Positions 3,839 through 59,908 of a DNA stretch of 64,000 bases are shown here, piece by piece (the stretch's first letter is position 1; the number at the start of each line of letters is the position of its first letter). The translations under genes and the position numbers were made by a program. This DNA is from Palleronia rufa. Its GTDB lineage: Bacteria > Pseudomonadota > Alphaproteobacteria > Rhodobacterales > Rhodobacteraceae. The notes under the pieces are model-generated. The model was not told the origin of the DNA. It searched no databases and saw nothing but the letters and a program-made list of their open reading frames with translations. The DNA lies in the NCBI RefSeq assembly GCF_000743715.1, contig NZ_JQEY01000004.1:161937-225936 (forward strand), read 5' to 3'.

Positions 3839-3864
3839 GGCGGGCTCCCTTGCGGCTGTCCTTA

Positions 3865-3893: not shown

Positions 3894-3946
3894 ACTAAGG
3901 TGCCGTCTTGTCGCGGACGAATCTCCCGGAGAAAGGGTTGCGGGCC

Positions 3947-4426: not shown

Positions 4427-4486
4427 GCGGGAACCCGGCGGCGCCCCCGGCGCGTTGGAGGCGGACACGTCAGAAGGAGGCTCCCC

Positions 4487-5311: not shown

Positions 5312-5379
5312 GTGCCGCTGCGTCCGGCTTTCGCCGCGGCGGCGGGCAAGGCTACATGGTCCGCGAACCGGAGGACCCC

Positions 5380-6300: not shown

Positions 6301-6693
6301 GCGGGCGCAGTCTCCGCCCCGGTGGACCGGGCGGGTCCGGGGTCTTGCCTGGCGGCGGGATGACCGTGCGTCGCGGAACCGGCCGGACAGAGGGCGGCAC
6401 CGCGAACGGCGAGGGCGACGGCGGACGATCCGCCTCCGCCTTCGCTGGCCATCGTCCCCGGCGACCGCCGCGCGGCGCCGCCGTTGCCCCGCGCGCAAAA
6501 CAATGGGTCGGCGCGGTCGCGTGGACAGGCCCGTGGGAACCGGGGGCAGCGTCGGTGGCGGTGCCGGGCGTCGGGTTTTTGGGCCGCGGGCCGGGTCTCT
6601 TCCGGCGCCGGTTCCAACGCGCCGGCCAGACGTGCGCCGGTGCGAGGCGGGTGTGCGTCGGTCGGCCATCCGCCGTTGCCGGGCGGCCGGGTC
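6301..6693. other. Gene-free stretch between convergent genes
   Basis: No convincing coding region is visible here. Codon-position bias is absent in all frames and open frames are the usual high-GC artefacts. Around 6405-6445 there is a long imperfect inverted repeat (17-bp arms with three mismatches, left arm GCGAGGGCGACGGCGGA), which could be a bidirectional termination structure but has no T tract. Confidence 0.4.
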
Positions 6694-7542: not shown

Positions 7543-7557
7543 TCCTGAGGTGCGGCA

Positions 7558-7614
7558 GGGGGCGCTGCCCCCCGGCCTGCGGCCGCCCCCCGGGATATTT
7601 TCAGAAAGATGAAG
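7558..7614 (-). repeat. Dispersed 3'-end repeat element, copy A
   Basis: Read on the minus strand it begins CCTTCATCTTTC, continues to AAATATCCCGGGGGG, then forms a GC hairpin and ends in a second hairpin with arms GGGGGC and GCCCCC. It lies about 80 bases downstream of the pdxA stop in the same orientation as pdxA. Copies B (48791) and C (53165) share the same order of parts. Confidence 0.75.
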
Positions 7615-7696
7615 GGGCAGGGGGCGCCCGTCCGATCGGTCGCGGGGCGGTGGCGGGCCGCGGGGCGCAACGGCCGCGGGGCGGTGGCGGGCCGCG

Positions 7697-8680
7697 TCAC
7701 GGGGCGGGTACGGCCGCGCGGGCGGCCGCCATGCGCGCCGCCAGCCGCAGCGCCGCGATGGTGGAGGCCGGATCGGCCCGGCCGGTCCCGGCGATGTCGA
7801 AAGCGGTGCCGTGATCGGGGGAGGTGCGCACAAAGGGAAGCCCCAGGGTGACGTTCACCCCGCCGGCGAAATCCACCGTCTTGATCGGGATCAGCGCCTG
7901 GTCGTGGTACATGGCCACGGCGGCGTCGTAGCGGGCGCGGGCCTCGGGGTGGAAGAGCGTGTCGGCGGAGGCGGGGCCGCGCAGATCCATCCCCTCGGCC
8001 CTGAGGGTGTCGATCACCGGAACGATGGTGTCGATCTCTTCCCGGCCCATGGCGCCGCCCTCGCCCGCATGGGGGTTCAGCCCGGCCACGGCGATCCGGG
8101 GGACGGGCAGGCCAAAGTCGCGGATCAGCGCCGCATGGGTGATGCGCAGGGTCCGTTCCAGCGATGCGCGGGTGAGGGCGCGCGGCACCTCTGCGAGGGG
8201 GATATGGACCGTGGCCGGCACGACGCGGAGCGTGTCGCAGGCCAGCATCATCACCACGTCCGCCCCCCCCGCCAGGGCCGAAAGATATTCCGTATGGCCG
8301 GGATAGGCAAAGTTCGCGCCGTCGATCAGGGCCTTCTTGTGGATCGGCAGCGTGCAGAGCGCCCGGGCCGCCCCGGCCCCGACCATCTCTACCGCGCGGG
8401 CGATGATCTCCACCACCAGGGGGGCGTGGGCGGGGTGCGGCGTGCCGGGCGTGGCGGGCGCGCCCATGTCCACGGCAAGGACGGGCAGTCCGGAGCGGGC
8501 CGCCGCGGCCGCCTCCCCGGGGGTCGCGATCAGCGCCACGGGCGCGTCCCGCGGCAGGTGCGCCGGATCGCCCAGGTAGAAGAACGGCACGGCGTCGCCA
8601 AGCGCGCGCCATGCCTTTGCGGCGATCTCCGGCCCGACCCCGGCAGGCTCGCCGCAGGTCAGCACGATGGGTGCCGTCAT
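7697..8680 (-). CDS. pdxA: 4-hydroxythreonine-4-phosphate dehydrogenase
   Basis: PdxA oxidises 4-phosphohydroxy-L-threonine with NAD in the DXP-dependent pyridoxal phosphate pathway. The 327-residue protein starts with the family signature [17 protein letters not shown], has the metal and phosphate-binding regions [38 protein letters not shown] and the C-terminal [15 protein letters not shown]. Its ATG overlaps the stop codon of the SurA-like gene by four bases (ATGA), showing translational coupling. The linkage surA-pdxA-ksgA next to lptD is an old proteobacterial arrangement. The GGCAAC of related dehydrogenases is replaced, but all PdxA landmarks are intact, so the call is firm. Confidence 0.96.
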
Positions 8681-9912
8681 TGCCGGACGATGGTGGCGTT
8701 GGCGCGAAGCTCGGCCAGCAGGTTGTCGGCCCGGCGCCCGACGCGGCGCTGGACCAGCGCGTTGCGGACCTGGCCCAGATTGGGCGCTTCGGCATCCGCG
8801 GCCCGGTAGGACCGGCCGCAGAGCATCAGGAGCACCAGCGTCTGCCCGTCGGCGCGTGTGAGGCCGGTGGAGACCTCCCCGGGGTCCAGCCGGGCCAGTT
8901 CCAGCGCCACGTCCGACGGGATTTCCGCGACGGGACGGCTGTCGCGCCGGAGCCGGGCCGGGTCGGCCCCCTGGGCCACGGCGTAGAGATCGTCGCAGGT
9001 ATCCACGCGCGCGTCGATGCGCGCGGCTTCGGCCAGGGCCTGCGGGGACCGGCCGCCGGGGATGTCATAGGCGGCGTAGTCGATGGATGTGGGCACGCCC
9101 TGGGGCACGATCTCATCGACCTGGCGGAGCTGGAAGAAGGCCAGCGCATTGGGCAGCGGGATCGGCGCGGTGACCTGTCCGGGTTCCAGGGCCAGGATCG
9201 CCTGGCCGAGCTGCGGCGGAAGGTTGGCCAGTTCCAGCCAGTCGATCCGGCCGCCGCGGGTGCGCGAGGGGGTGGCGGAATACTCCCGCGCGGCGGCGGC
9301 GAAGGCATCGAAGGAGGTGATCGAAGAAATCTGCGGCGCCAGGGACTGCGCCCGGGCGGCGCGGTCGGGGGTGTTCGCCGGAATGATCAGCTCATTGAGC
9401 AGCACCCGCAGTCGCGGCGCGGGGGGCGCGTCGGCCGCGCGCTCGACCTCGTCCTCCTCGATCCGGGTGGTGTCACCGAAGCGGGCGCGCACCACCTGGC
9501 GCCAGGCGACACCGGCGCGGACGAAATCCTCGAACGTGGTCACGTCGACGCCGCCGCGGGCGATCTGGGCCACGAACGCTTCACGGGTGAGGTTGGCGCG
9601 GCCGGCGAATTCGGTCATCCCGTCGAGCACCTCCTGGCGGGTGACCTCGATTCCCGCGCGCCGCGCTTCGGCAAGTTGCAGGCGTTCGTCGATCAGGTCG
9701 CTCAGCGCCTTGTCGCGCGTGGCGTCGGGGGCGTTGAAGAGCTGGAGCAGCTTCTGGCGCTGGTCGACCTCGAAGGCGGTGACCACGGTCTCGTCCACGG
9801 TGGCGGCCGGGGCGAACATGTTCTGCGCGGCCCCGGGCAGCGGAGCGCCCGCCGCGAGGACGGCCGCCAGCACGGCGCCGAGGGCGAGGGATCTGGGAAA
9901 GAGGGTCATCAT
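8677..9912 (-). CDS. SurA-like periplasmic peptidyl-prolyl isomerase / outer membrane protein chaperone
   Basis: The 411-residue protein has a signal peptide (about residues 1-28, hydrophobic core then PGAAQ) and a SurA N-terminal chaperone domain (VDETVVTAFEVDQRQKLLQLF onwards), followed by a diverged parvulin-type PPIC region around residues 170-270 (LLNELIIPANTPDRA). SurA escorts beta-barrel precursors such as LptD to the BAM complex. Two tandem ATGs (9912 and 9909) are equally possible starts. The gene sits directly between lptD and pdxA as surA does in many proteobacteria. The second isomerase domain of E. coli SurA is not evident, so isomerase activity is uncertain. Confidence 0.85.
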   Translation of the reverse strand: MMTLFPRSLALGAVLAAVLAAGAPLPGAAQNMFAPAATVDETVVTAFEVDQRQKLLQLFNAPDATRDKALSDLIDERLQLAEARRAGIEVTRQEVLDGMTEFAGRANLTREAFVAQIARGGVDVTTFEDFVRAGVAWRQVVRARFGDTTRIEEDEVERAADAPPAPRLRVLLNELIIPANTPDRAARAQSLAPQISSITSFDAFAAAAREYSATPSRTRGGRIDWLELANLPPQLGQAILALEPGQVTAPIPLPNALAFFQLRQVDEIVPQGVPTSIDYAAYDIPGGRSPQALAEAARIDARVDTCDDLYAVAQGADPARLRRDSRPVAEIPSDVALELARLDPGEVSTGLTRADGQTLVLLMLCGRSYRAADAEAPNLGQVRNALVQRRVGRRADNLLAELRANATIVRQ

Positions 9913-9949
9913 GCGGCTCGTTGTTCGGGCGTGACTGACTGGGGGCATA

Positions 9950-12055
9950 TCATCCCTTGCAGATCTTTCGATAGCTTTCGTCGTTCCGCCCGCTGCCGAA
10001 CCCGGCAAGGGAAACCTGGACGCCCAGGGATGTGGTCGGTTCGATCAGGGCGGTCTCCGTGAAACGGCGGTTGACGCTGAACTCGACCTCTATGCATTCG
10101 GTCCGGTAGACAAGGCCCACGCCAGCCTCTGCCGCCTGGTCGCGGTTGAAGTCGTAGCGGGATTCGAAGCTGCCGATCCAGTGCCGCGAAAGGCGCAGAT
10201 CACCGTCCAGGATCAGCTCATGGGTGTCGCGGGGGCGGTTCTCGCGCCGTTCGCCGTCGAGCCAGACATAGGCGCCTTCCAGCCCGAAGCGGTCGGTGCG
10301 CAGCGCCAGGCGGGTTTCCGTCTTCTTGGTGTCGAAGCCGGCGTTGAAGACCGATCGCGCGGTCAGGTCCAGCATGGCGCCAAAGCTGAGCCGCCCGGCC
10401 AGCAGCCAGTCCGACCGGTCGCCAGCAAGTCCGGTGCCGGGAAAGAACGCCTTGACCGCTTCGGTGCGCAGAATCCGGCCGAAGGTCAGTCCGATGCCGG
10501 TGCCGTCGGTGTTGTAGCCCGTGTAGCTGATACCGACATTGGCGCGCAGCCCGGTTTCGATGGCGTCGTCACCGGGAAAGCGGCTGAGCGCGTAGAGATT
10601 GCCCTCATCGAACTCGACCAGCTGGCTGTCCTCGTTCGGAACGGTATCGCCGCTCTGGCGCGTATAGGCCAGCTGGACCACCGGCTCGATCAGGTGATGG
10701 GTGCCGGCAGCCCCCGTGCGCTGGAGCGGCAGGCGCAGTTCCGTCGCCAGCGTTCCGGCCAGACGCATGGGCGTGGCGTCGAAGCGGCTGTCCTGCTCCA
10801 CCGCGTAGAAAGTGCCGGCCAGGCGGGCGCGGTTCTGCCAGACCAGACCCGGCCCAAGGATGTCGCGGTTGAACCAGTCGGCGTTCAGGCCGATTTCGGC
10901 CGTGTCGCGGCCCAGCTGGTCGATGTCTGAGGCGCGGTAGATCGACGCGGCGTCGAGTCCCAGGCGCAGCTCTCCCGGGCCGATCCGGTACCGGCGTTCG
11001 AGCACCAGATCGGTGACGAGAGACGGCAGCCGGTCCTCGATCGCGACCTCGCCCTCGCGCAGGGTCGTGTAGTCGGTCAGGCTGGCGCGGAAGAGCTTGT
11101 CGCGGCTGACCTTCAGGATCCGGCCTTCCGTCCTGAGGCGGTCCTTGTCGGAATAGTCGTAATCGACCAGGTAGGCCTCGTCCGACACCGCCTCGACGTC
11201 GAATTCCAGCCGGTAGTCGCGCGGCAGCGCGAAGGCCGCGTCGCCGATCACGTACCAGCGGGTCGCATCGCGGCGGATGTCGTCGCGCGACACCGCCCCC
11301 GCCACATTGATGGCGCCGAAGGACAGCGTCTGGCGGTACCGCGTCTCCAGCGTGGTCGTCCGGTTCGACAGGTAGGGCGTCAGGGTCAGGTCGGCATTGT
11401 CCCCCGCCGTCACGAACAGCGGCACCTTGGCGCCCAGCCCCAGTTGGCTGTTCGAGCGCAGGCGCGGGATCAGCACCCCGGTGACGCGGCTGCGGGTCGG
11501 GTCGGCCAGCCGCAGGCGCGGGAAATAGGCCACCGGCACACCGAAGAGCCGGAATGTCGCGCGGTCGAAATAGAGCAGCCGTTCCTGACGGTCGTGGATC
11601 ACCTTGGCCGCCCGGATTTCCCAGACCGGGGTGGGGTTTGCGGCGCATACCTCACATGAGGAGGCGACCGTGTTGGACAGCTGCACGTAGCGTTCTCCGA
11701 CCCGCGCGATCTGTGTCGCGGCCAGTTGCAGCTGCCGGTCGAGCACCAGGCGCGCCGAGCGCAGGATGCCGTTGCTGAGGTCGGGGTCGAGCGCGGCGCT
11801 GTCGGCCAGCAGCACCGAGTTCTGCCCGTCGTCCAGGGTGATCGGGCCGTCGATCAGCAGCCGGTCCGCCGACCGGTCATAGACGATCCGCGAGGCGGTC
11901 AGCAGCGCGCCCTGGTAGGCGACCTGGACGTTGCCTTCGGCGATGAGGCGGTTGTCGTTGGCGATCCGCACCGAGTCCGCCAGAAGCGTGGCGGTCTGGG
12001 CCAGGGCGCCGGCGGGCGCCAGGCACAAGAGCAGCCACAGGGCCAGCGCGCGCAT
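9950..12055 (-). CDS. lptD: LPS-assembly protein LptD
   Basis: This 701-residue outer membrane protein has a signal peptide (MRALALWLLLCLAPAGALAQ), an OstA/LptA-like beta-jellyroll (about residues 22-130: ADSVRIANDNRLIAEGNVQV) and a large C-terminal beta-barrel with alternating aromatic strands. With LptE it inserts lipopolysaccharide into the outer leaflet. A Cys pair in SSCEVCAANPTPVW, conserved in alphaproteobacterial forms, could form a disulfide. The start codon shares one base with the lptG stop (TGATG), so expression should be coupled to the inner-membrane Lpt permeases, and a SurA-like chaperone follows 37 bases downstream. Confidence 0.96.
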   Translation of the reverse strand: MRALALWLLLCLAPAGALAQTATLLADSVRIANDNRLIAEGNVQVAYQGALLTASRIVYDRSADRLLIDGPITLDDGQNSVLLADSAALDPDLSNGILRSARLVLDRQLQLAATQIARVGERYVQLSNTVASSCEVCAANPTPVWEIRAAKVIHDRQERLLYFDRATFRLFGVPVAYFPRLRLADPTRSRVTGVLIPRLRSNSQLGLGAKVPLFVTAGDNADLTLTPYLSNRTTTLETRYRQTLSFGAINVAGAVSRDDIRRDATRWYVIGDAAFALPRDYRLEFDVEAVSDEAYLVDYDYSDKDRLRTEGRILKVSRDKLFRASLTDYTTLREGEVAIEDRLPSLVTDLVLERRYRIGPGELRLGLDAASIYRASDIDQLGRDTAEIGLNADWFNRDILGPGLVWQNRARLAGTFYAVEQDSRFDATPMRLAGTLATELRLPLQRTGAAGTHHLIEPVVQLAYTRQSGDTVPNEDSQLVEFDEGNLYALSRFPGDDAIETGLRANVGISYTGYNTDGTGIGLTFGRILRTEAVKAFFPGTGLAGDRSDWLLAGRLSFGAMLDLTARSVFNAGFDTKKTETRLALRTDRFGLEGAYVWLDGERRENRPRDTHELILDGDLRLSRHWIGSFESRYDFNRDQAAEAGVGLVYRTECIEVEFSVNRRFTETALIEPTTSLGVQVSLAGFGSGRNDESYRKICKG

Positions 12056-29116: not shown

Positions 29117-31498
29117 ATGCCCAAAGACGGCGGTATCGGCGCCAGCACGAAACGGCGCGAGGACGTTCGGTTCCTGAGCGGGACGGGACAGTACACGGAT
29201 GACATCAACCTGCACGGACAAGCCCACGCCTATTTCCTGCGCTCCGATGTCGCCCACGGGACGATCAACGGTATCGACACGGAGGCGGCCGAGGCGATGC
29301 CCGGCGTGCTGAAGGTCTTTACCGCCAAGGATTTCGAGGGGGTGGGCGGCGTGCCCTGCGGCTGGCAGGTCACCGACCGGTTCGGAGAGGTGATGCAGGA
29401 GCCCAAGCACCCGGTCCTGGCCGAAGGCCGGGTCCGCCACGTGGGCGATCCGATCGCCGTGGTCGTGGCCGAGACGCTGGCCCAGGCCCGCGACGCGGCC
29501 GAGGCCATCGTGCCCGACATATCCGATCTGCCGGCCGTCGTGGACCTCAAGGCGGCGCTGGAGGACGGTGCGCAGAAGGTGCACGAAGAGCTTAAATCGA
29601 ACCTCTGTTACGACTGGGGCTTCGTCGAGGACAACCGCGACGCGGTGGACGAGGCGATCCGGAACGCCCATCACGTCACCACGCTGGAGCTCAGGAACAA
29701 CCGGCTGATCGCCAACCCGATGGAGCCGCGCGTGGCCGTGGGCGACTACAACCGCGCCAATGATGAGCATACGCTCTACACCACCTCGCAGAATCCCCAT
29801 GTGATCCGCCTGTTGATGGGTGCGTTCGTTCTGGGCATCCCCGAGCACAAGCTGCGCGTGGTGGCGCCCGATGTGGGCGGCGGTTTCGGCGCCAAGATCT
29901 ATCACTACGCGGAAGAGGCGTTCTGCACCTTTGCCGCGAAGGCCCTCGGGCGTCCCGTGAAATGGACCTCATCGCGGTCGGAAGCCTTCATGTCCGACGC
30001 GCACGGCCGCGACCACGTGACCAAGATCGAACTGGCGCTGGACAAGGACAACAACTTCACGGCGCTCAGGACGGAAACCTACGCCAACATGGGCGCGTAT
30101 CTGTCGACCTTCGCGCCGTCGATCCCCACCTGGCTGCACGGCACGCTCATGGCGGGCAACTACAAGACGCCGCTGATCTACGTGAACGTGAAGGCGGTGT
30201 TCACCAACACCGTGCCGGTGGACGCCTATCGCGGTGCCGGACGGCCGGAGGCCACCTATCAGCTGGAGCGCGTCGTGGACCAGGCGGCGCGGGAGCTGGG
30301 CGTCAGCCCGATCGAGCTGCGCCGCCAGAACTTCATCACGGAGTTTCCCTACGCCACCCCGGTGGCGGTCGAATACGACACCGGCGACTATCACGCGACG
30401 ATGGACAAGCTGTTGGAGATGACCGACCACGCCGGGTTCGAGGCCCGTGCGGCGGAGTCCAAGAAGAACGGCAAGCTGCGCGGTTTCGGCCTGGCCCACT
30501 ACATCGAGGCTTGCGGCATCGCGCCGTCGAACCTGGTGGGACAGCTGGGCGCCCGGGCGGGTCTTTACGAAAGCGCCACCGTGCGGGTGAACGCCACCGG
30601 CTCGATCAGCGTGATGACCGGCTCTCATTCACACGGGCAGGGGCATGAGACGACCTTCGCGCAGGTGATCTCGGAGATGATCGGGATCGACGCGAACCAG
30701 GTCGACATCATTCACGGCGACACGGGCCGCGGGCCCATGGGCATGGGCACCTATGGCTCCCGCTCGATCGCGGTGGGCGGGTCGGCCATGGTCCGCGCGG
30801 CGGAGAAGGTCATCAACAAGGCCAAGAAGATCGCCGCCCATCTGATGGAAGCCTCGGAGGGCGACATCGAGCTGAAGGACGGCAAGTTCTCTGTCGCCGG
30901 GACCGATAAGGAGGTCGCCTGGGGCGATGTCACACTGGCCGCCTACGTGCCCCACAACTACCCGCTGGAAGACATCGAGCCGGGCCTGGAAGAGACGGCC
31001 TTCTACGATCCGGCCAACTTCACCTATCCCTCCGGCGCCTATGGCTGCGAGGTCGAGGTCGATCCCGAGACCGGCAAGGTCGAGATCGTGGGCTTTGCCG
31101 CGGCGGACGATTTCGGCAATGTCATCAATCCGATGATCGTCGAGGGTCAGGTCCACGGCGGGCTGGCGCAGGGCATCGGACAGGCGCTGATGGAGAATTG
31201 CGCCTATGACGCGGACGGTCAGCTGATCTCGGCCAGCTACATGGACTATGCCATGCCGCGCTCTTCGGATCTGCCGATGTTCAAGGTGGACCATTCCTGC
31301 GTGACGCCCTGCACCCACAATCCTCTGGGCGTGAAGGGCTGCGGCGAGGCAGGGGCCATCGGTTCGCCGCCCGCGGTCGTCAACGCCGTGCTCGACGCGC
31401 TGAATCGCGGCGGGCACAAGGTCGCCCATATCGACATGCCGACCAGCCCGGCGCGGGTCTGGGCGGCGATGAACAAGACCCCGATGGCCGCGGAATAG
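29117..31498 (+). CDS. coxL: Molybdopterin-containing large subunit of xanthine/CO dehydrogenase family (form II CoxL-like)
   Basis: The 793-residue catalytic subunit has the aldehyde oxidase/xanthine dehydrogenase a/b hammerhead (residues about 20-135) and the Mo-cofactor-binding domains. The active-site loop reads AYRGAGR (370-376), the hallmark of form II; true form I CO dehydrogenase has AYRCSFR with the copper-binding cysteine. VGGGFGAK and the C-terminal GCGEAGAIG with the catalytic Glu are intact. Form II enzymes have uncertain substrates, and CO oxidation at low rate has been reported for some only. It has its own GGGAGG site 10 bases upstream. The gene is complete and looks functional. 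Confidence 0.93.
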
Positions 31499-51442: not shown

Positions 51443-52633
51443 ATGACCGACACCCGACCGACGCTCCGCCTGATGCCGAAATCCAAGCCGCAGGCGATCC
51501 GCCACGGCTTTCCCTGGGTCTATGCCAATGAGGTCGTGATGGACCGGCGCACCCGCGCTTTGGCGCCCGGCACGCTGGCGGTGCTGGAGGACCCGGACCG
51601 CCGCGCCATGGGGCTGGTCACGGTGAACCCGGACTCGAAGATCGTCGGCCGCATGCTCGACCGCGACCCGGCGGCCCGGATCGACGAAAGCTGGCTCCGC
51701 GCCCGCATCGCCCGTGCGCTGTCGCATCGCGCGCGGCTCTACGACCGGCCGTTCTACCGGCTCATCCACGCAGAGGCGGACGGCTTGCCCGGCGTGGTCA
51801 TCGACCGCTTCGGCGACGCCGCCGTGATCCAGCCCAATGCCGCCTGGGCCGAGCGCCATCTGAACCTGCTGGTCTCCGCGCTGATGGCCGAAACCGGGAT
51901 CGACGCCGTGTTGAAAGGCGCCGGCGGCCGCGCCCGCGCGCTCGAAGGGCTGGACGACGCCGACGCGGTGCTGGCCGGCGGTGTCGAAGGCCCGGTCGAT
52001 GTCGAGATGAACGGCGCGATCTACAAGGCCGACCTGACCGGGGGGCAAAAGACCGGTCTCTACTACGACCAGCGCGACAACCACGCCACGGTGGCAGGGC
52101 TGTCCCGCGGTGCGCGGGTGCTCGATGTTTTCTCCCATGTCGGCGGCTTCGCGTTGGCGGCCCTGGCGGCCGGGGCCAAAAGCGCGCTGGCCGTCGACGG
52201 CTCCGCCCCCGCCCTGTCCCTGGCGCAGGCCGGCGCGGAGGCCACGGGTGTCGCGGACCGCTTCGCCACGCGGCAGGGCGACGCTTTCGCGGCCCTCGCG
52301 GCGCTGGCCGACGAAGCCGCGCGCTTCGATGTGGTGATCTGCGACCCGCCTGCCTTCGCGCCGTCGAAATCCGCGCGCGACGCCGGGCTGCGTGCCTATG
52401 AGCGCGTCGCGCGCGCGGCCGCTCCCCTGGTCGAACCGGGTGGCTATCTTGCGCTTTGCTCCTGTTCCCATGCCGCTGACCTGGCCGCTTTCCGCGCCGC
52501 CTGCACGGCCGGGATCGGCAAGGCGGGCAGGGCGGGGCAGATCGTACACACCGGATTCGCCGCGCCGGACCATCCGCTGCTGCCGCAACTGGCCGAGTCC
52601 GGTTATCTCAAGGCGCTGGTCTACCGGCTGTGA
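51443..52633 (+). CDS. Class I SAM-dependent RNA methyltransferase (RlmI-like, RSP_2647 family)
   Basis: The 396-residue protein has an N-terminal PUA-type domain (about 8-85: LRLMPKSKPQAIRHGFPWVYANEVV), an EEHEE-like middle region, and a Rossmann methyltransferase domain with the characteristic GGQKTGLYYDQRDNH, motif I VLDVFSHVGGFALAALAAGA and the DPPAF active-site motif (about 298). This arrangement fits 23S rRNA m5C methyltransferases such as RlmI, although the target base cannot be read out. I recall the Rhodobacter equivalent as RSP_2647. Its last four bases overlap the PIN gene start. Confidence 0.9.
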   Translation: MTDTRPTLRLMPKSKPQAIRHGFPWVYANEVVMDRRTRALAPGTLAVLEDPDRRAMGLVTVNPDSKIVGRMLDRDPAARIDESWLRARIARALSHRARLYDRPFYRLIHAEADGLPGVVIDRFGDAAVIQPNAAWAERHLNLLVSALMAETGIDAVLKGAGGRARALEGLDDADAVLAGGVEGPVDVEMNGAIYKADLTGGQKTGLYYDQRDNHATVAGLSRGARVLDVFSHVGGFALAALAAGAKSALAVDGSAPALSLAQAGAEATGVADRFATRQGDAFAALAALADEAARFDVVICDPPAFAPSKSARDAGLRAYERVARAAAPLVEPGGYLALCSCSHAADLAAFRAACTAGIGKAGRAGQIVHTGFAAPDHPLLPQLAESGYLKALVYRL

Positions 52634-53163
52634 AAGTGTTCATGGACGCCTGCGTTCTCTACCCGACGGTCCTGCGCGAGATCCTGATCGGCGTCGCCGC
52701 ACGCGGTCTCTACAGCCCGGCCTGGAGTCCCCGCGTGCTGGAAGAGTGGGCCCGCGCCGCCGCGCGGCTTGGCCCAGAGGGCGACGCCGTGGCCCGGGCA
52801 GAGATCGCCGCCCTCCGCGACCGCTTCCCCGGCGCAGAGGCGCATCCCCGCGGCGCCGACCTTGCGCGCCTTCACCTGCCGGACCCCGACGACATCCACG
52901 TCCTCGCTGCCGCCATAGCCTCCGGCGCGGACGCCATCTGTACCTTCAACGCGCGCGATTTCCCCCGCCGCACCTTGGCGCATGAAGGGTTGGAGCGCGT
53001 CGATCCCGACCAGCTCCTACGCCGCCTCGGCCCCGACCCGGCAATCGGAGACACCGTCCGCAGCGTCCACGCCACCGCCGAACGCCTGTCGGGCGAGGAT
53101 CTGCCGATGCGTCTGCTCCTCAAGCGCGCGCGTCTGCCGAAACTGGGCAAGACGCTCGCCTGA
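52630..53163 (+). CDS. PIN domain protein (RSP_2648 family)
   Basis: The 177-residue protein opens with a PIN signature MKVFMDACVLYPTVLREIL (Asp6 in the first metal site) and has later acidic residues in LPDPDDIHVLAAAIASGAD and TFNARDFPRRTL, the order of a PIN nuclease. Starting at GTG 52630 it overlaps the methyltransferase stop by four bases (GTGA), so both are made together. There is no antitoxin gene next to it, unlike VapC toxins; a C-terminal helical extension (about 130-177) may take that place. A role in RNA processing is inferred from the partner. Copy C of the dispersed element follows two bases after the stop. Confidence 0.85.
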   Translation: MKVFMDACVLYPTVLREILIGVAARGLYSPAWSPRVLEEWARAAARLGPEGDAVARAEIAALRDRFPGAEAHPRGADLARLHLPDPDDIHVLAAAIASGADAICTFNARDFPRRTLAHEGLERVDPDQLLRRLGPDPAIGDTVRSVHATAERLSGEDLPMRLLLKRARLPKLGKTLA

Positions 53164-53245: not shown

Positions 53246-53932
53246 TCAGCCGCCCAGCCAGGCGCGTTCGTTGGCCTCGATCGCCGCGATCCGGTCCGCG
53301 CTGTCGGGGTGGCTCATCATCCAGGCCGGCGCTGCCGCCCCGTTCGCGCCGGTCAGCCGGTCGAGCTTGCCGAACAGGGACTTCTGCGCCCCGGCCCCGA
53401 TACCGGCCTTGATGAGCAGCGCGGTCGCGTAGGCGTCGGCCTCATACTCGTCGGAGCGCGACAGGCGCGCCGCCAGAAGCGTCGCAAGCGCATTTGCGAT
53501 GAGCAGGCCGACACCGGGGATGAGCCGCCCCAGCACCATGGCCAGCGCGGTCCGCAGCGCGTTCTGCCCCGAAAAGTCGATCATCCGCCGCCGCGAATGC
53601 CCCAGGGCCACGTGGCCCAGCTCGTGTGCGATGACGCTGGCGAGCTCCTCCGCGCTCACCGCGCCCGCCCGGTAGCGATCGTAGAACCCGCGCGTGATGA
53701 AGATCCGCCCGTCCGGAGCGGCCAGCCCGTTGACCGGCGCGACCTCATAGATATGCACGCGGATCCGTTCCAGATCGAGCGCCTGGGCCATCCGGTCGCA
53801 CAGCGCCCGCAGACGTCCATCGGCGAGTTCGGTGGATTTCGCGTCGAGCTCCCGCGCCGTGCGCCAGGCCGAAAAGCGATACATCGCCAGCCCGTAGAGG
53901 ATCGCCAGAAGGATCGGTGTGAACTTCAACAT
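53246..53932 (-). CDS. M48 family metalloprotease
   Basis: The 228-residue protein has an N-terminal membrane anchor (MLKFTPILLAILYGLAMYRF) and an M48 zinc protease domain with HELGH (103-107) and a third ligand in SDEYEADAYA (Glu162); the region VAPVNGLAAPDGRIFITRGF precedes it as in Ste24/HtpX relatives. A second hydrophobic segment occurs around 125-155. It may act in membrane-protein quality control. It lies 120 bp downstream of the osmC gene, past a strong terminator, so it needs its own promoter. Confidence 0.9.
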   Translation of the reverse strand: MLKFTPILLAILYGLAMYRFSAWRTARELDAKSTELADGRLRALCDRMAQALDLERIRVHIYEVAPVNGLAAPDGRIFITRGFYDRYRAGAVSAEELASVIAHELGHVALGHSRRRMIDFSGQNALRTALAMVLGRLIPGVGLLIANALATLLAARLSRSDEYEADAYATALLIKAGIGAGAQKSLFGKLDRLTGANGAAAPAWMMSHPDSADRIAAIEANERAWLGG

Positions 53933-53993: not shown

Positions 53994-54028
53994 GAAAAAG
54001 GCCGCCCCCGCCCGAAGGCGGAAGCGGC
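53994..54028 (-). terminator. Intrinsic terminator of osmC
   Basis: On the minus strand a 12-bp stem (54017-54028 with 54001-54012, two G-T wobbles) is closed by a TTCG tetraloop and followed by CTTTTTCG. It lies 27 bases after the osmC stop and upstream of the M48 protease gene. Confidence 0.9.
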
Positions 54029-54054: not shown

Positions 54055-54483
54055 TCAGGCCATCTTCGCATCCATCGTGATGTCGGCGCCGGCCAGCACC
54101 TTGGAGACCGGGCAGCCCTCCTTGGCGGCCTGCGTCGCCTCCCTGAATTGCTCGTCGGTCGCGTCGGGGATCGAGGCGGTGACGTCGAGATGAATCTTGG
54201 TGATCGCAAACCCGCCATCCACCTCTTCCAGGCTCACCGTCGCCTTGGTGTCGATGCTGGACGCCTCCAGGTCGTGCTGGCCCAGGATCATCGACAGCGC
54301 CATGGAGTAGCAGGCCGCATGGGCCGCGCCGATCAGCTCTTCGGGGTTGGTGTTGGTCCCGCCCTCGAACCGCGACTTGAACCCGTAGTTGGCCTGGTCG
54401 AGCACGCCGGTCTGGGTGCTCACGGTGCCGGTGCCTTCTTTCAGGCTGCCTTTCCAGTTGGCGGATCCGGTTTTCTTGATCAT
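54055..54483 (-). CDS. OsmC family peroxiredoxin
   Basis: OsmC proteins reduce organic hydroperoxides with a pair of cysteines. Here they are Cys58 or so in GAAHAACYSMALSMILG and the second in AAKEGCPVSKVLAGADI, both conserved, with the early Arg in the FKSRFEGG loop. The 142-residue length and N-terminus IKKTGSANWKG match the OsmC rather than Ohr branch. ATG 54483 is preceded by GGGAGAC; a GTG one codon earlier is possible. It has its own intrinsic terminator and a 136-bp upstream gap after the VWA gene. Confidence 0.93.
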   Translation of the reverse strand: MIKKTGSANWKGSLKEGTGTVSTQTGVLDQANYGFKSRFEGGTNTNPEELIGAAHAACYSMALSMILGQHDLEASSIDTKATVSLEEVDGGFAITKIHLDVTASIPDATDEQFREATQAAKEGCPVSKVLAGADITMDAKMA

Positions 54484-54619
54484 CACTGTCTCCCTGTGGT
54501 GTGAATGGGTCGGTCCGGAAACGCCAGGGGGCCGGTCCTGTTCCGCAGCGCCGCCGTCGCTCTGCGATGCCCGGCGGCAGGTCCGGTCCCGGCCGATCCT
54601 TCATCCAGCAACCCGCGGT

Positions 54620-55804
54620 TCACGTCAGCAGCTTCATGCCCCGTGTCAGCCCGTCCAGCGTCATCGGAACCATCCTGTCGGCGCCGAAGATCTCCTGCAC
54701 CATCTGCGTGGACTGCGTGTAGCCCCAGGCGGTCTCCTGCACCGGGTTGATCCACAGATGCGCCGGCCACTGGTCGCGCGCGCGGGCCAGCCAGACATGG
54801 CCGGCCTCCGCGTTCCAGTGCTCGTTCGCCCCGCCCGGCATGGCGATCTCATAGGGGCTCATGGCCGCGTCGCCGACGAAGATGCAGCGCCATTCGGGAC
54901 CGTAGGTGCGCAGGATGTCCCAGGTCGGCACCTGCTCTGTCCAGCGTCGGCTGTTGTCGCGCCAGACACCTTCGTACAGGCAGTTGTGGAAATAGACCTG
55001 CTCGAGGTGCCGGAATTCCGACCTGGCGGCGGAAAAGAGGTCGGAGACCACTTTCACGTGATCGTCCATGGACCCGCCCACGTCCAGAAACAGCAGGACA
55101 CGGACGGCGTTGCGCCGTTCGGGGCGGGTCTTGACGTCGAGATAGCCGTTCGACGCCGTCGCGCGGATGGTCGACGGCAGGTCGAGTTCCTCGTGCGCGC
55201 CGTCGCGGGCCCAGCGGCGCAGGCGCTTCAGCGCGACCTTGATGTTGCGGGTGCCGATCTCCCGGTCGTCCTCGAAATCGCGGAACTCCCGCTTGTCCCA
55301 GACCTTGATCGCGCGGCGGTGGCGAGAGCCGTCCTGCCCGATGCGCACGCCTTCGGGATTGTAGCCATAGGCCCCGAACGGAGACGTGCCCGCGGTGCCG
55401 ATCCATTTCGACCCGCCCTGGTGGCGCGCCTGCTGTTCCTTCAGACGCGCGCGCAGCGTCTCCATCAGCTTGTCGAACCCGCCCATCGCCTCTATCCCGG
55501 CGCGCTCTTCCGGGCTCAGGTGCTTTTCGGCCATCTTGCGCAGCCAGTCCTCGGGCAGGTCCATGGCCTCGACCACGGCGGCATCCGGGATCGCCTCCAC
55601 GCCACGGAACGCCGCCGCGAAGGCCTGATCGAACCGGTCTATATGACGCTCGTCCTTGACCAGGGCGGTGCGGGCGACGTGGTAGAACGCATCCACGTCA
55701 TAGGTGACCAGTCCCGCCCGGAGCGCAGCCAGGAAGTCCAGGAATTCGCGGAGGGAGGTCGGGACGCGGTGGCGGCGAAGTTCTTCGAAGAAGGGGAGAA
55801 ACAT
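54620..55804 (-). CDS. VWA domain protein of the CoxE family
   Basis: The 394-residue protein belongs to the CoxE/COG3552-like VWA group: an N-terminal helical part (FFEELRRHRVPTSLREFLDFL), a linker with GTAGTSPFGAYGYNP, then a VWA domain with the metal-site motif FLDVGGSMDDH (first position Asp, DVGGS instead of DxSxS) and YFHNCLYEGVWRD. In Oligotropha, CoxE acts with the MoxR-type ATPase CoxD to insert copper and sulfur in CO dehydrogenase; relatives serve other insertase tasks. A MoxR gene is encoded 2.7 kb upstream. Its start overlaps the stop of the small membrane protein gene by one base. Confidence 0.88.
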   Translation of the reverse strand: MFLPFFEELRRHRVPTSLREFLDFLAALRAGLVTYDVDAFYHVARTALVKDERHIDRFDQAFAAAFRGVEAIPDAAVVEAMDLPEDWLRKMAEKHLSPEERAGIEAMGGFDKLMETLRARLKEQQARHQGGSKWIGTAGTSPFGAYGYNPEGVRIGQDGSRHRRAIKVWDKREFRDFEDDREIGTRNIKVALKRLRRWARDGAHEELDLPSTIRATASNGYLDVKTRPERRNAVRVLLFLDVGGSMDDHVKVVSDLFSAARSEFRHLEQVYFHNCLYEGVWRDNSRRWTEQVPTWDILRTYGPEWRCIFVGDAAMSPYEIAMPGGANEHWNAEAGHVWLARARDQWPAHLWINPVQETAWGYTQSTQMVQEIFGADRMVPMTLDGLTRGMKLLT

Positions 55805-55971
55805 CAGGTGGCCAGGTTCTCGATGACGATGGTCGCCACCAGCCCGCCCAGGGTCCCGGCGATCGCGCAGGCCAGGGCGTACTGAACCATGTCGGCCCGC
55901 GTGCCGCCATGGCGCCTGGCCAGCCGCGCGCCGAGAACGGCGCCGATGAGCAATCCGGCAAGTACGATCAT
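55804..55971 (-). CDS. Small membrane protein (55 residues) in the VWA operon
   Basis: The short frame (MIVLAGLLIGAVLGARLARR at the start, IENLAT at the end) encodes two membrane helices, residues 2-15 and 33-51, joined by a basic loop. Its ATG overlaps the DUF2927 stop by four bases and its stop overlaps the VWA start by one base, which is strong evidence that it is a real gene in an operon. The glycine-rich first helix is like that of small channel or scaffold peptides. No family is known to me; it may anchor the VWA or ATPase partners at the membrane. Confidence 0.8.
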   Translation of the reverse strand: MIVLAGLLIGAVLGARLARRHGGTRADMVQYALACAIAGTLGGLVATIVIENLAT

Positions 55972-57350
55972 GATGCAGGCTCCGCTGGAATGGGTGCGAT
56001 CGCCGCGATCTCATCGGCGCGTCGCAGCACCTCGCGGGGGTCGCCGTAGCCGTAGCGCGCCCAGCCCAGGGCGTCGGCGCGCAGACGGTCGGATTCGGTC
56101 CTGCGGCCCAGGTCCCTCAGCGCGGTCGCCTTGATCATGAGCAGCGTGGACAGGAGCGACGCGTTCTCCGCCGCGACCACGGCGGGCGTATTGGCGTCGA
56201 CGATGGCCAGCGCCGATTGCGGCTGGCCGGAGGATAGCGCGAAGGCGGCCAGCTGCACGGCGATATGGGCGCCGTGGACCGACGTGGCCGGGTCGCGGGC
56301 GTAGATGCTGGCCGCTTCCAGGAACGCCGCCAGCGCCACGTCGTCATTGCCGTCCAGCGACAGCCGTGCCAGCGCAAACAGTGAGAACGCAAGGCGGTTG
56401 TCGTTCCAGCCGCCCGCGCGCGCGATCGCGACGGCGCGGCGGGCAGCGCGCTTGCGGGCGGCCGGCCGACCCCGGGGGCCGAGCGCGCGCTCGATCTCGT
56501 CGATCCAGGCCCGGCTGGTCGGCGGCCGGGGTGCGGCGCCCCGGCCCGCGCCGGCCGGGTTCAGCCGCGCCAGGATCGCGGGCAGGCGCGCGGCCACGTC
56601 CGACCGGCTCATGCCGGAGCGCAGCTCGGGCGCGTAGGTGGCGCGCAGGATCAGCATGTCGAAGCCGGTCAGCACGGTATGGAAGTTGTCGTCGTTGAAC
56701 ACGGAATCGGTCAGGCGGTAGAGGTCGTTGAGCGGTCCCAGCGCCTGCGCCAGTTCCTCATGCAGGCAATCCCGCACCTCCTGGGGGGGCACGTCGCCGG
56801 GGATGAAGACGGCCACGGTGTCACGCGTGCGCAGGGTGCTCCAGTCGAGCGCCCCGCTGCGCCGATTGGCCATGAAGTCGCCCCAGGAGGTCACGCGGGG
56901 CACGACGAAGCAGGCGGCCTCCGGCACGGCGCGCTGGAGCGTGGCGCGGGGAACGACCTCTACGGTGATGTTGGCGCGGTCCGCGGCCGGGGTTCTGGCG
57001 ATGTCGATCCCGGCCTCGGTTCGGAAGCGGGCCAGAAGCCGCGCCAGGTCGCCCTCAAGGCTGGCGGGCGCGGGCCCCAGGACGCGCAGGGCGATCGGCC
57101 CCTCGAAGCGGGTCATGACCGGCAGCGCGCGGCCCGACTCAAGCATGAAGGTCAGATCCAGGAAATCCCGCGCGATCTCGGGGTTGGGACGTGCCGGACG
57201 GGTCACCTGCGGTCCGGCGAAGACCTTCATGGGCGGCAACGGCGCCATCTCTCCGGTCGCGCGGCGCTGCGGCGGCGCGTCGGGCGTGCCGCAGGCGGAC
57301 AGCGCCAGGAGGGCAGCCGTAAGGAGGGCGAGGTTTCGCATCCGCGGCAT
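55968..57350 (-). CDS. DUF2927 domain lipoprotein
   Basis: The 460-residue precursor has a signal peptide with lipobox (LLALSACG, Cys near residue 20), so it should be lipid-anchored in the envelope. Residues about 55-270 form DUF2927 (FLDLTFMLESGRALPVMTRFEGPI, then DCLHEELAQALGPLNDLYRLTDSVFNDDN with a HExxx..D pattern resembling a metalloprotease-like site). The C-terminal half (about 280-440) is helical and repeat-like, of TPR type. Start MPRMRNLALL or MRNLALL. It is the first gene of the coupled DUF2927-small protein-VWA operon. Function is unknown. Confidence 0.85.
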   Translation of the reverse strand: MPRMRNLALLTAALLALSACGTPDAPPQRRATGEMAPLPPMKVFAGPQVTRPARPNPEIARDFLDLTFMLESGRALPVMTRFEGPIALRVLGPAPASLEGDLARLLARFRTEAGIDIARTPAADRANITVEVVPRATLQRAVPEAACFVVPRVTSWGDFMANRRSGALDWSTLRTRDTVAVFIPGDVPPQEVRDCLHEELAQALGPLNDLYRLTDSVFNDDNFHTVLTGFDMLILRATYAPELRSGMSRSDVAARLPAILARLNPAGAGRGAAPRPPTSRAWIDEIERALGPRGRPAARKRAARRAVAIARAGGWNDNRLAFSLFALARLSLDGNDDVALAAFLEAASIYARDPATSVHGAHIAVQLAAFALSSGQPQSALAIVDANTPAVVAAENASLLSTLLMIKATALRDLGRRTESDRLRADALGWARYGYGDPREVLRRADEIAAIAPIPAEPAS

Positions 57351-57586
57351 TGAATCCTACCCGGAGCGGAATGCCAACCGGTCTTGGGGCGGCCCTGCCG
57401 AAAGTTGATCCTGATGCGACTCGAAGGTGACGCCGCAGCACCGTCCGACAGAGCCAGGGTATTCGCGGACCGCGATATTTGCGGCGACACGAAGCGGGTC
57501 GCTGCGGCTTGTCCGCGCCCGCCGGCGGTCCGCCCGCGTCACGGGGCGATGCCGCGCCCCGGCCAGGCGGCAGGTTGCACGCGCCC

Positions 57587-58009
57587 TCAGAGGCGGGCGT
57601 CGCCCAGCAGGCCGGCCAGCGGACCGCCGGGGACATGGCGCCAGCGGGGCTCCGGCCGGCGGCGCAGCCAGCGCAGGTCGGCCGCGCCGAGCGTTTCGGC
57701 CTCTTCGCGCACCGTATCGACCAGCCGGCGCCCTATTCCCAGGCCGCGCGAGTCCGCGCAGACATAGAGATCCTGCAGGTAGCAGACCGGTGGCGCCATC
57801 CATCCGTGGGTGTGGACGATGAAATGCACCAGGCCCACGGGGCGGCCGTCGCGCACGGCCAAGCGGCCGGCAGCGGGGTGGCCGTCCATCAGCCGCGCCC
57901 ATTGGGCGGCGTAGATCTCATCGGGAAGGTCGGTCTTGCAAGACACCAGGAACGCGCGCCAGAGGCGGGTCCAGGCGGTTCGGTCGTGGGGTGTCAGGGC
58001 GCGGATCAC
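57587..58009 (-). CDS. GNAT family N-acetyltransferase, C-terminus unusual
   Basis: The 140-residue protein has the GNAT fold to motif A: TRLWRAFLVSCKTDLPDEIY, PVGLVHFIVHTHGWMAPPVCYLQDLYVCADSRGLGIGRRLVDTVREEAETLGA, with the acetyl-CoA loop RGLGIGRRL. After residue about 110 the usual segment containing an Asn-Ala-x-ArgxLY motif is replaced by an Arg/Pro-rich tail (LRWLRRRPEPRWRH), which suggests a frameshift near 57680, so it may be damaged. The start is GTG at 58009. The substrate is unknown. Confidence 0.75.
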   Translation of the reverse strand: MIRALTPHDRTAWTRLWRAFLVSCKTDLPDEIYAAQWARLMDGHPAAGRLAVRDGRPVGLVHFIVHTHGWMAPPVCYLQDLYVCADSRGLGIGRRLVDTVREEAETLGAADLRWLRRRPEPRWRHVPGGPLAGLLGDARL

Positions 58010-58468
58010 GGGCGGCAGTCCTCTGCGGAGGGGCCGGTGGCGCCTCCTGCTGCGATGCGCCGCCTATAGGGCCCGGCCGCCGATCCGGCCAGCGGTTTGT
58101 TGCCGGGGTCGGCGGGGCCTTGCCGGCGGTCGTCGCCAGCCCCCTCGTCGTTGGGCAGCCCGGTGGGGGTCACTGCCCGGTCGGGGGCTGGCCAGGGCGT
58201 TCGACCTCTGTCCGAATCCATGGATGCAACGGTCCCTCCCAGATCTGCGGATGGATCGTGCCGGGTCCCGCTGATGCTCCCCGGCCCGCGGGGACCGGAT
58301 CAAAAGGAGACGGTCGCGCAAGCGGGCGCGCGCGAGACGCGGCCGAATGATCATCTGCGACGCGGTCTCCTGCGGCAAGGCATTCGCCATACCGGTCGCT
58401 CTAGCGGGCGACCACCTTCGTACATGCGGCATGGCGCATCATTCCGTCGGCGCGGATGCCCCGGTCCG
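58010..58468. other. Gene-free stretch upstream of GNAT gene
   Basis: I see no gene in these 459 bases. The frames on both strands are short and biased to Arg, Pro and Gly. The stretch follows the moxR stop and contains no clear terminator. Confidence 0.35.
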
Positions 58469-59320
58469 TCAGCCCCTCTGGCGGCGGGCCATGAAGGCCA
58501 GGCGCTCGAACAGATGCACGTCCTGCTCGTTCTTCAGCAGCGCGCCGTGCAGCTTCGGCAACGCGTCGGCACCGTCGCGCCTGAGGTCTTCCGGCGTCAG
58601 ATCCTCTGCCAGCAGCAGCTTGAGCCAGTCGATCACCTCCGAGGTCGAGGGCTTCTTCTTCAGCCCCTGCTGGTCGCGGATCTCGTAGAACTGGGTCAGC
58701 GCGGTGGTCAGCAGCGCGTCCTTGATCCCCGGGTGGTGCACCGCGACGATCCGCTTGAGCGTCTCCATGTCGGGAAACCGGATGTAGTGGAAGAAGCAGC
58801 GGCGCAGGAAGGCGTCCGGCAGCTCCTTTTCGTTGTTCGAGGTGATGATGACGATCGGGCGCAAGCCGGCGCGGACGGTCTGGCCGGTCTCGTAGACGTG
58901 GAACTCCATCCGGTCGAGCTCTTGCAGCAGGTCGTTGGGAAACTCGATATCGGCCTTGTCGATCTCGTCGATGAGGAGCACGCAGCGGCCCTGATCGGCG
59001 GTGCGCTCGAACGCCTCCCAGAGCTTGCCGCGGCGAATGTAGTTCGCCACGTCGTGGACCCGCTCATCGCCCAGTTGGCTGTCGCGGAGCCGGCTGACGG
59101 CATCGTATTCGTAAAGCCCCTGCTGCGCGCGGGTAGTCGATTTCACGTGCCATTCGATCATCGGCAGGCCCAGCGACAGGCTCACCTGACGGGCCAGTTC
59201 GGTCTTGCCGGTTCCGGGCTCGCCCTTCACCAGAAGCGGGCGTTCCAGCGTGATCGCGGCGTTGACCGCGATCTCCAGATCGTCTGTGGCGACATAGCCG
59301 TCGGTCGAGCTGAACTGCAT
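58469..59320 (-). CDS. MoxR-type AAA ATPase (CoxD-like)
   Basis: The 283-residue AAA+ protein has Walker A GEPGTGKT (33-40), Walker B LLIDEIDKAD (about 119-128), sensor 1 (VIITSNNEKELPDAFLRRC with the Arg finger) and an AAA_5/AAA lid domain ending VHLFERLAFMARRQRG. It belongs to the branch that works with CoxE-like VWA proteins as a metal- or cofactor-insertion chaperone pair. The VWA gene lies further down the same strand behind the GNAT and DUF2927 genes. The ATG at 59320 is the family start (MQFSSTDGYVATDDLEIAVN). Confidence 0.9.
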   Translation of the reverse strand: MQFSSTDGYVATDDLEIAVNAAITLERPLLVKGEPGTGKTELARQVSLSLGLPMIEWHVKSTTRAQQGLYEYDAVSRLRDSQLGDERVHDVANYIRRGKLWEAFERTADQGRCVLLIDEIDKADIEFPNDLLQELDRMEFHVYETGQTVRAGLRPIVIITSNNEKELPDAFLRRCFFHYIRFPDMETLKRIVAVHHPGIKDALLTTALTQFYEIRDQQGLKKKPSTSEVIDWLKLLLAEDLTPEDLRRDGADALPKLHGALLKNEQDVHLFERLAFMARRQRG

Positions 59321-59485
59321 CTTGATCCTGTCGGGAAGGTCCGGTCGGGCGCGACCTTAGGCATGGGCCGAGACGGGCACAAGCCTTGCCAGATGGTGCG
59401 TGACAAGTCGGGGCCCATCGGATATGCGCCCGCCCAAGACCACGACAGACCGGGATACGGGACAGTTACTGGGGAGTGACAATTG

Positions 59486-59908
59486 ATGAAGGTCGAAACC
59501 TTCCTACCGGACGATTACCGTCCCGCAGAGGACGAACCGTTCATGAACGAGCGTCAGCTCGAATACTTCCGGCGCAAGCTGACTGACTGGAGACATGAGC
59601 TTCTCGATGAGGGTCGCTCCACCATCGAGGGTCTTCAGGACGGCACCCGCAACATCCCCGACATGGCCGACCGCGCCAGCGAAGAGACCGATCGATCCAT
59701 CGAACTGCGGACCCGCGACCGTCAGCGCAAGCTGGTGGCCAAGATCGATTCCGCGCTGCGCCGGATCGACAACGGCGAATACGGCTATTGCGAGGTGACG
59801 GGTGAGCCGATCTCGCTCAAGCGGCTTGATGCGCGTCCCATCGCGACCCTGAGCCTGGAGGCCCAGGAACGCCATGAGCGCCGCGAAAAGGTGCACCGGG
59901 ACGACTGA
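59486..59908 (+). CDS. dksA: RNA polymerase-binding transcription factor DksA, single-cysteine type
   Basis: DksA binds in the RNA polymerase secondary channel and, with ppGpp, tunes rRNA and stress promoters. The 140-residue protein has the coiled coil with tip residues Asp59, Asp62 and Ala64 (DMADRA) needed for function. The zinc-finger cysteines are reduced to C-T-S-A: Cys102, Thr105, Ser123, Ala126, so zinc cannot be bound in the classical way. I recall the same C-T-S-A pattern in the functional Rhodobacter sphaeroides DksA (RSP2654). Start ATG 59486, after GGGGAG. It is divergent from moxR. Confidence 0.95.
   Translation: MKVETFLPDDYRPAEDEPFMNERQLEYFRRKLTDWRHELLDEGRSTIEGLQDGTRNIPDMADRASEETDRSIELRTRDRQRKLVAKIDSALRRIDNGEYGYCEVTGEPISLKRLDARPIATLSLEAQERHERREKVHRDD

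Follow-up and report, generated by a model that had tools for sequence, protein, structure and literature searches.

What does a MoxR-type ATPase act on when its gene stands, together with that of a von Willebrand factor type A (VWA) protein, beside the genes for a DUF2927 lipoprotein and a membrane protein of 55 residues? Such a locus is found on the minus strand of a stretch of 64,000 nucleotides from Palleronia rufa (the window; coordinates are window positions unless another contig is named). MoxR-VWA pairs are ATP-driven assembly factors. In a preliminary description of the window the pair had been taken for CoxD/CoxE, and the overlapping start and stop codons of the lipoprotein, 55-residue and VWA genes for the sign of a complex through cytoplasm, membrane and periplasm. 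Our results lead to a different picture: a widespread MoxR-VWA machine, which in Rhodobacteraceae is genetically tied to a two-helix membrane protein (termed the hairpin protein here) and to a metalloprotease-like lipoprotein in which the metal residues are replaced.

The MoxR-VWA pair and its relation to CoxD/CoxE

In 142 alphaproteobacterial genomes, mostly one per family, we found the VWA protein in 53 and the window type of MoxR in 54. All 53 genomes with the VWA protein have this MoxR, and the reverse is true for 53 of the 54; in the lone genome with MoxR only (G052) the contig stops within the match, at the end where a VWA gene would be expected. The window-type MoxR proteins form a discrete group, with an expect value (E) of 2.6e-111 for the weakest member and 3.0e-37 for the next paralogue; 35 aligned sequences were 66-90% identical to the MoxR of the window. 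The VWA protein also occurs in 60 of 200 sampled Pseudomonadota genomes. Gene order outside the family of the window was followed in 67 loci: 39 alphaproteobacterial ones fetched out of 51 VWA genomes of the 142-genome sample and, from the 200-genome sample, 4 further alphaproteobacterial loci and 24 of other classes (out of 27 VWA genomes of these classes). moxR precedes the VWA gene in the same orientation in all 24 examined loci of other classes and, within 6.4 kb, in 36 of the 39. Besides moxR the most recurrent neighbours in the 39 loci, judged by eye, were alaS-like (11 loci) and recA-like (10 loci) genes; no metabolic partner stood out among their conserved neighbours. We are confident that MoxR and the VWA protein belong together as an obligate pair, a machine distinct from CoxD/CoxE and PA2707-like.

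MoxR-VWA pairs are also described as the core of conflict systems in the accessible text of PMC7159879, and MadB_ATPase gives the window MoxR 111.4 bits. It is nevertheless extremely improbable that the locus serves anti-phage defence or conflict in the manner of MadB/MadC or of the ternary systems. The MadB_ATPase score is far under the NCBIfam cut-off of 475, and PADLOC gave for MoxR no more than a weak match to a P-loop stretch of IetA and nothing for the VWA and DUF2927 proteins. Furthermore, each of the 53 genomes has a single VWA match, and two genomes as small as about 1.4 Mb (G008 and G049) retain the pair.

The assignment to CoxD/CoxE was not borne out either. The VWA protein does exceed the cut-off of VWA_CoxE (PF05762; 36.7 versus 26.4 bits), with a match that spans profile positions 7-98 of 222. 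Yet the best CoxE match of the genome, at C9:52941-53606 on another contig, reaches 204 bits as against 37 bits for the window VWA protein, and next to it is a MoxR-type ATPase with about 34-35% identity to the window MoxR. A form I CO dehydrogenase large subunit above the cut-off was present in 5 of the 142 genomes. In four of them (G087, G107, G096 and G022) a MoxR match of the other kind, that of CoxD, lies 81-163 bases from the form I coxL, and in G070 it lies on another contig. To these four coxL-adjacent ATPases the C9 ATPase is 50-52% identical, the window MoxR only 34-35%. Likewise, the C9 CoxE has a match in all four of the frames next to coxL (30-41% identity, E 3e-30 or lower), whereas the window VWA protein matches only one of the four CoxE frames (E 5e-5). 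The metal site differs as well: it is DISGSM in the C9 CoxE and DxSGSM in the four coxL-linked frames, versus DxGG[ST]M in the window type. All four genomes also carry the window-type pair elsewhere.

A second argument for CoxD/CoxE could be drawn from genome content, since CoxL-family genes are commoner in genomes with the VWA protein (41 of 53) than in those without (22 of 89; odds ratio 10.4, Fisher p 1e-9). When the genomes are divided by size, this association is gone in the two larger classes: 10/15 versus 9/17 between 2.35 and 3.45 Mb (p 0.49) and 29/33 versus 9/10 above 3.45 Mb (p 1.0). Below 2.35 Mb it is 2/5 versus 4/62 (p 0.06), in a class where only 5 genomes have the VWA protein. 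Moreover, at E<=1e-100 a CoxL-family match is missing from 12 of the 53 genomes with the VWA protein, and 49 lack a form I enzyme above the cut-off. With separate paralogues in the genome, a differing metal site and no link to coxL, the CoxD/CoxE identity of the pair was dropped. That the pair is an insertase for a CO dehydrogenase-like or other molybdenum hydroxylase, displaced from the structural genes, is accordingly very improbable.

The preliminary description had also called the only Cox-type enzyme in the window form II and had suspected another target for the pair. Both points stand. By its sequence the enzyme, 23 kb away from the pair, is form II-like, with the motif AYRGAGR and a score of 631.4 bits versus a CO dehydrogenase cut-off of 991.15, and the presence of a separate CoxD/CoxE-type pair in the genome supports the view that the target of the window pair is probably not a Cox-type enzyme. 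Correcting the label avoids a misleading annotation. The best NCBIfam match of the window enzyme was glyceraldehyde dehydrogenase alpha (646.5 bits, under its cut-off of 790). None of the 5 CoxL-family matches of the genome lies on contig C9. There the CoxD/CoxE-type pair (positions 7864-11820 of locus L126, G000:C9:45000-62000) stands in a block (861-11820) amid XdhC-like, GMC oxidoreductase-like and glyoxalase-like genes, all under their family cut-offs.

Linkage of the lipoprotein and hairpin genes to the VWA gene

The genes next to the VWA gene were compared in 80 loci, taken as those that match the window VWA protein best in the genome collection and thus biased to close relatives (Rhodobacteraceae-type; one, L042, is labelled Nocardioides marinus and is probably mislabelled). 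In 77 of them the DUF2927 gene precedes the VWA gene within 700 bases and in the same orientation. A hidden Markov model (HMM) of the hairpin protein, trained on 60 sequences (from 59 of the 80 loci and the window), found it in 76 loci, 17 of these being new finds. With such counts the linkage of the three genes is not due to chance, and the association noticed in the window proved to be conserved. In 7 further genomes of the family, an even draw from the 200-genome sample, the DUF2927 gene was adjacent in 6 and the hairpin gene in 7.

The overlaps seen in the window were confirmed: the DUF2927 gene and the 55-residue open reading frame share the 4 bases ATGA, the latter and the VWA gene 1 base in TGATG. 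Among the 59 loci used for these statistics the exact overlap is retained in 10 (DUF2927/hairpin) and 12 (hairpin/VWA). Gaps of at most 50 bases separate DUF2927 and hairpin genes in 56 loci, and gaps of at most 20 bases separate hairpin and VWA genes in 49, with more than 100 bases in 7.

For moxR the situation is different. All four genes are on the minus strand, as described, but they are not contiguous: transcription runs through moxR, an overlooked GNAT gene, the DUF2927 gene, the 55-residue frame and the VWA gene (Table 1). Since the GNAT gene and gaps of 459 bases (moxR side) and 236 bases (DUF2927 side) intervene, moxR is not tightly coupled to the other three. Among the 62 loci whose moxR precedes the DUF2927 gene in the same orientation, one had a gap of at most 50 bases between the two, and the median gap was 486. 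Where 6 kb upstream were available, 13 of 69 loci had no moxR upstream on the VWA strand; it was inverted within the locus in 2 (L003 and L061) and elsewhere in the genome in 11 (one of these matches, in G332, covers residues 1-185 only). Co-occurrence of the four genes, whose frequent separation was to count against the earlier reading, thus holds for the MoxR/VWA pair and for the linkage of DUF2927, hairpin and VWA genes, whereas moxR partly separates from the locus. A promoter scan of the locus gave 0 promoter-like sites, and a terminator scan gave 2 overlapping terminator-like sites (54001-54028), no excess over shuffled sequences.

Table 1. Position of the genes of the MoxR-VWA locus and of other features in the window
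Feature	Position	Strand	Remarks
MoxR-type AAA+ ATPase, 283 residues	58469..59320	-	AAA 47.5 bits; window-type (PA2707-like) orthologue group
GNAT acetyltransferase, between moxR and DUF2927 gene	57587..58009	-	Acetyltransf_1 44.4 bits
DUF2927 lipoprotein, 460 residues	55968..57350	-	PF11150 169.6 bits (cut-off 26.2); lipobox Cys20; predicted matrixin-like and TPR-like domains
Two-helix membrane protein (hairpin), 55 residues	55804..55971	-	HMM match in 76/80 loci
VWA protein, 394 residues	54620..55804	-	PF05762 (VWA_CoxE) 36.7 bits
OsmC-like gene, downstream of VWA gene	54055..54486	-	
M48 peptidase, downstream of VWA gene	53246..53932	-	PF01435 89.7 bits; conserved neighbour
DksA-family gene, divergent from moxR	59483..59908	+	DksA_N 107.4 bits; conserved neighbour
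Cox-type enzyme (form II-like CoxL)	29117..31498		AYRGAGR motif
Two frames, by eye rlmI-like and PIN-domain protein-like	51443..53163	+	

Outside the family neither of the two envelope genes was found beside the VWA gene in any of the 67 loci examined, the HMM scan for the hairpin protein covering the 900 bases upstream of the VWA gene. Hence DUF2927 and the hairpin protein cannot be core parts of the machine. A DUF2927 match somewhere in the genome was present in 12 of the 53 VWA genomes, by coordinates beside the VWA gene in G000 and G022 only.

Possibly, then, DUF2927 and the hairpin protein are an independent envelope unit that shares the VWA operon by chance, and the client of MoxR-VWA is cytoplasmic as in other bacteria. 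The 67 loci argue for this, as do three genomes (those of L017, L030 and L073) in which the VWA gene is elsewhere and the hairpin gene stays beside the DUF2927 gene, and the outer membrane-like lipobox of the lipoprotein described below. On the other hand, the linkage in 77 and 76 of the 80 loci persists while GNAT, OsmC, M48 and TPI genes come and go, and the hairpin gene stays by the VWA gene in two loci without adjacent DUF2927 gene, one in G305 and one on the Paracoccus ferrooxidans megaplasmid pFER4 (only the megaplasmid was searched there). We therefore regard an independent unit as rather unlikely.

Several further neighbours recur. A GNAT-like gene is found in 33 of the 80 loci and, outside the family, between moxR and VWA genes in L155, L162 and L163. 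The small enzymes at this place differ, being GNAT in Rhodobacteraceae and in another alphaproteobacterial family and GFA in a Pseudomonas-like genome (L141:8551-8955). Of 72 loci with 4.5 kb of sequence beyond the VWA gene, 47 have an M48 peptidase gene there in the same orientation; on pFER4 it starts 27 bases after the VWA gene. The rlmI-like and PIN-like frames recur in the VWA block in 46 of the 80 loci. A dksA-family gene is present in 60 of the 80 fetched loci and, among the 39 alphaproteobacterial loci of other families, in 6; the dksA-moxR neighbourhood is probably an old synteny.

Predicted structures and a possible mode of action

The AlphaFold2 model of the DUF2927 lipoprotein (mean predicted local distance difference test (pLDDT) score 92.9) has a matrixin-like domain at about residues 56-264 and a TPR-like C-terminal domain at about 277-450. 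With this model Foldseek listed TPR proteins, MMP-13 (E 0.013) and karilysin (E 0.044). VIA-align superposed karilysin (2xs4_A) on model residues 65-242 with Z 11.3, a root mean square deviation (rmsd) of 2.9 and 143 aligned residues of 167, and 1g05_B with Z 11.2; TPR proteins reached Z values up to 13.1, mostly in the C-terminal half. In metzincins the zinc helix, with the motif HExxHxxGxxH, ends just before a glycine. Helix 189-204 of the model likewise ends just ahead of an invariant glycine, and there all 54 window-type sequences have EExxQxxGxxND (E198-E199, Q202, G205, N208-D209), a register that follows from helix end and motif, not from residue-level structural alignment. E, E, Q, G and D are also retained in all 14 DUF2927 proteins of other types or families, and N in 13 of them. 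The probable Met-turn methionine of matrixins is presumably replaced by Phe. A DUF2927 lipoprotein with a non-catalytic matrixin-like domain is therefore, judging from the model, the probable reading. C147 and C195 are invariant in the 54 sequences as well, which would fit a periplasmic disulphide, and the lipobox Cys20 is present in 52.

The genome holds a further DUF2927 gene, of a different type and again with EExxQxxGxxND, in locus L172 (G000:C2:224000-231000) at 2654-3748; two DUF2927 matches were present in 8 of the 9 family genomes checked. Our literature search found no paper that uses the term DUF2927. DalA, in the accessible text of PMC10470522 a lipoprotein of 18 kDa, was rejected by its size as a counterpart of the 460-residue protein.

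The hairpin protein consists of two hydrophobic stretches around a basic loop with the motif A-[RK]-[RK]-R-x-G-x-x-x-D-x-x-Q-[YWF], and has GxxxG in helix 1. In the 60 aligned sequences G14, A18, G23 and D27 are invariant, and G10 is conserved in 59, G43 in 58 and Q30 in 57. It has no Pfam or NCBIfam match; at a lax limit weak matches far below the cut-offs appear, some of them to glycine-zipper families. Basic loops face the cytoplasm by the positive-inside rule, and this should hold for the loop of the hairpin protein.

In the VWA protein a helical N-terminal part precedes the VWA domain (about 232-394), which contains the site DVGGSM and GDA. D241, G243, G244, M246 and D312 are invariant in 73 window-type proteins; all 73 have DxGG[ST]M at the metal site, as against the canonical DxSxS. 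Equally invariant are Y271, F272, H273, N274, Y277, W281 and R286 of the segment Y271-F-H-N...Y277...W281...R286. The top Foldseek match of the AlphaFold2 model was NorD of the NorQD complex (9qhe_G; E 7.3e-4), a weak match (template modelling score, TM, 0.38; rmsd 9.5) of a model that is poor overall (pLDDT 67.6), the exceptions being the VWA domain, with blocks at 68-94, and some stretches of the N-terminal helices. Searches of PDB sequences ranked midasin first with the MoxR profile and gave no convincing relative with the VWA or the DUF2927 profile. A finger of NorD is proposed to enter the NorQ pore in the accessible text of PMC9976466; by analogy, segment Y271-R286 could be such a finger.

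The best explanation overall would be a NorQD-like remodelling ATPase with a VWA adaptor, docked at the membrane by the hairpin protein and with DUF2927 in the same pathway; we hold belief and doubt in it to be about balanced. MoxR would form a hexameric ATPase ring and the VWA protein, to judge by its family, would be the adaptor. As proposed for NorQD, the finger segment may enter the pore of the ring, and the DxGGxM site may hold the client together with the helical N-terminal part. That the pair works in this way, as ring plus adaptor, is by analogy quite probable. In Rhodobacteraceae the hairpin protein, its basic loop in the cytoplasm, could dock VWA-MoxR at the inner membrane or serve as a client-side adaptor. 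Docking is a tentative proposal, about which we have somewhat more doubt than confidence; it would imply a client in the membrane or envelope. The extracytoplasmic member of the pathway would be the DUF2927 lipoprotein. Because the usual zinc ligands are gone, its matrixin-like domain is probably a non-cleaving binder of a peptide or protein, and the TPR domain might serve a second partner. The lipoprotein may touch the hairpin protein or reach the same client from the opposite side.

Several observations weigh against parts of this explanation. Foldseek gave the DUF2927 model no match under E 0.001, profile searches gave no metzincin match by sequence, and TPR-like Z values of about 13 may reflect a merely common helical arrangement. 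The quality of the VWA model and of its match to NorD has been mentioned, as has the absence of both envelope genes in the 67 loci outside the family. In L064 DUF2927 and VWA genes are present and the hairpin gene was undetected. A lipoprotein without Asp after the lipobox Cys goes to the outer membrane by the Lol rule; the residue after Cys20 is Gly, in relatives mostly Ala or Val, so the lipoprotein is perhaps in the outer membrane, away from the hairpin protein. Finally, co-translated genes need not form a complex.

Three findings weaken the step from overlapping genes to a complex that spans cytoplasm, membrane and periplasm: the 67 loci, the retention of the overlaps in only 10 and 12 of 59 loci, and the possible outer membrane position. 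We consider it unlikely that the lipoprotein is coupled through the hairpin protein to the ATPase. The same low probability is assigned to a trans-envelope machine composed of a cytoplasmic MoxR ring, a glycine-zipper hairpin of 55 residues and a periplasmic pseudo-matrixin/TPR lipoprotein. If it were true, ATP hydrolysis inside the cell would remodel or inspect an envelope client, and DUF2927 would be a pseudo-metalloprotease family whose replaced zinc site is conserved for a new purpose. In any case DUF2927 gains a predicted fold and a testable pseudo-matrixin reading, and the Rhodobacteraceae version hints at where the target may be, namely near a membrane hairpin and an envelope lipoprotein.

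Comparison with known systems

Among known systems, the PA2707 subfamily of MoxR ATPases resembles the pair by its gene neighbourhood. In two Pseudomonas-like loci (L136 and L141, examined out of 7 fetched for f154, a family named from synteny) the order is cysK, MoxR, (GFA), VWA, with cysK above its cut-off and a MoxR 69-71% identical to that of the window. The order of PA2709, PA2707 and PA2705 in the accessible text of PMC12800425 agrees with cysK-MoxR-VWA, and by its position we infer PA2705 to be the VWA partner of PA2707. In the available part of PMC3893208, PA2707 is a MoxR subfamily of its own, and CoxD is assigned to another, APE2220.

Literature searches on PA2707/MoxR, CoxE/VWA/MoxR, PA2706/PA2705, MoxR-VWA with small membrane proteins, transposon fitness, matrixin pseudoenzymes, and alphaproteobacterial (20 of 99 entries) and Acinetobacter MoxR yielded, in the accessible parts of the papers, no function for the pair and no target for the PA2707 subfamily or its VWA pair. 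PA2705 and PA2706 appear in an expression list (excerpt of PMC6546240) and as an AlgR-bound operon (excerpt of PMC9600179). The CenR-linked 'putative MoxR family protein' RSP_1024 of Rhodobacter sphaeroides, as described in the accessible text of PMC9275681, could not be tied to the window-type orthologue group.

With CoxD/CoxE (APE2220 subfamily) the pair shares the domain make-up and a weak PF05762 match; the separate paralogues in the genome, the low identity of the ATPases, the other metal site and the missing coxL link set it apart. The DUF2927 domain resembles the matrixins (karilysin, MMPs) in predicted fold and, by motif, in the position of the zinc helix. Unlike them, it has all three zinc histidines replaced (by E, Q and N), is fused to TPR and belongs to a lipoprotein. 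NorQ/NorD would correspond to the pair in having a MoxR ring and a VWA adaptor, NorD being the best structural match of the VWA model, whereas this match is weak and the window VWA protein has DxGGxM in place of DxSxS. The PA2707 subfamily has the MoxR-VWA neighbourhood and the cysK-MoxR-(GFA)-VWA order in common with the window type, a tie by synteny only. In contrast to it, Rhodobacteraceae insert the DUF2927 and hairpin genes, and often a GNAT gene too, between the moxR and VWA genes.

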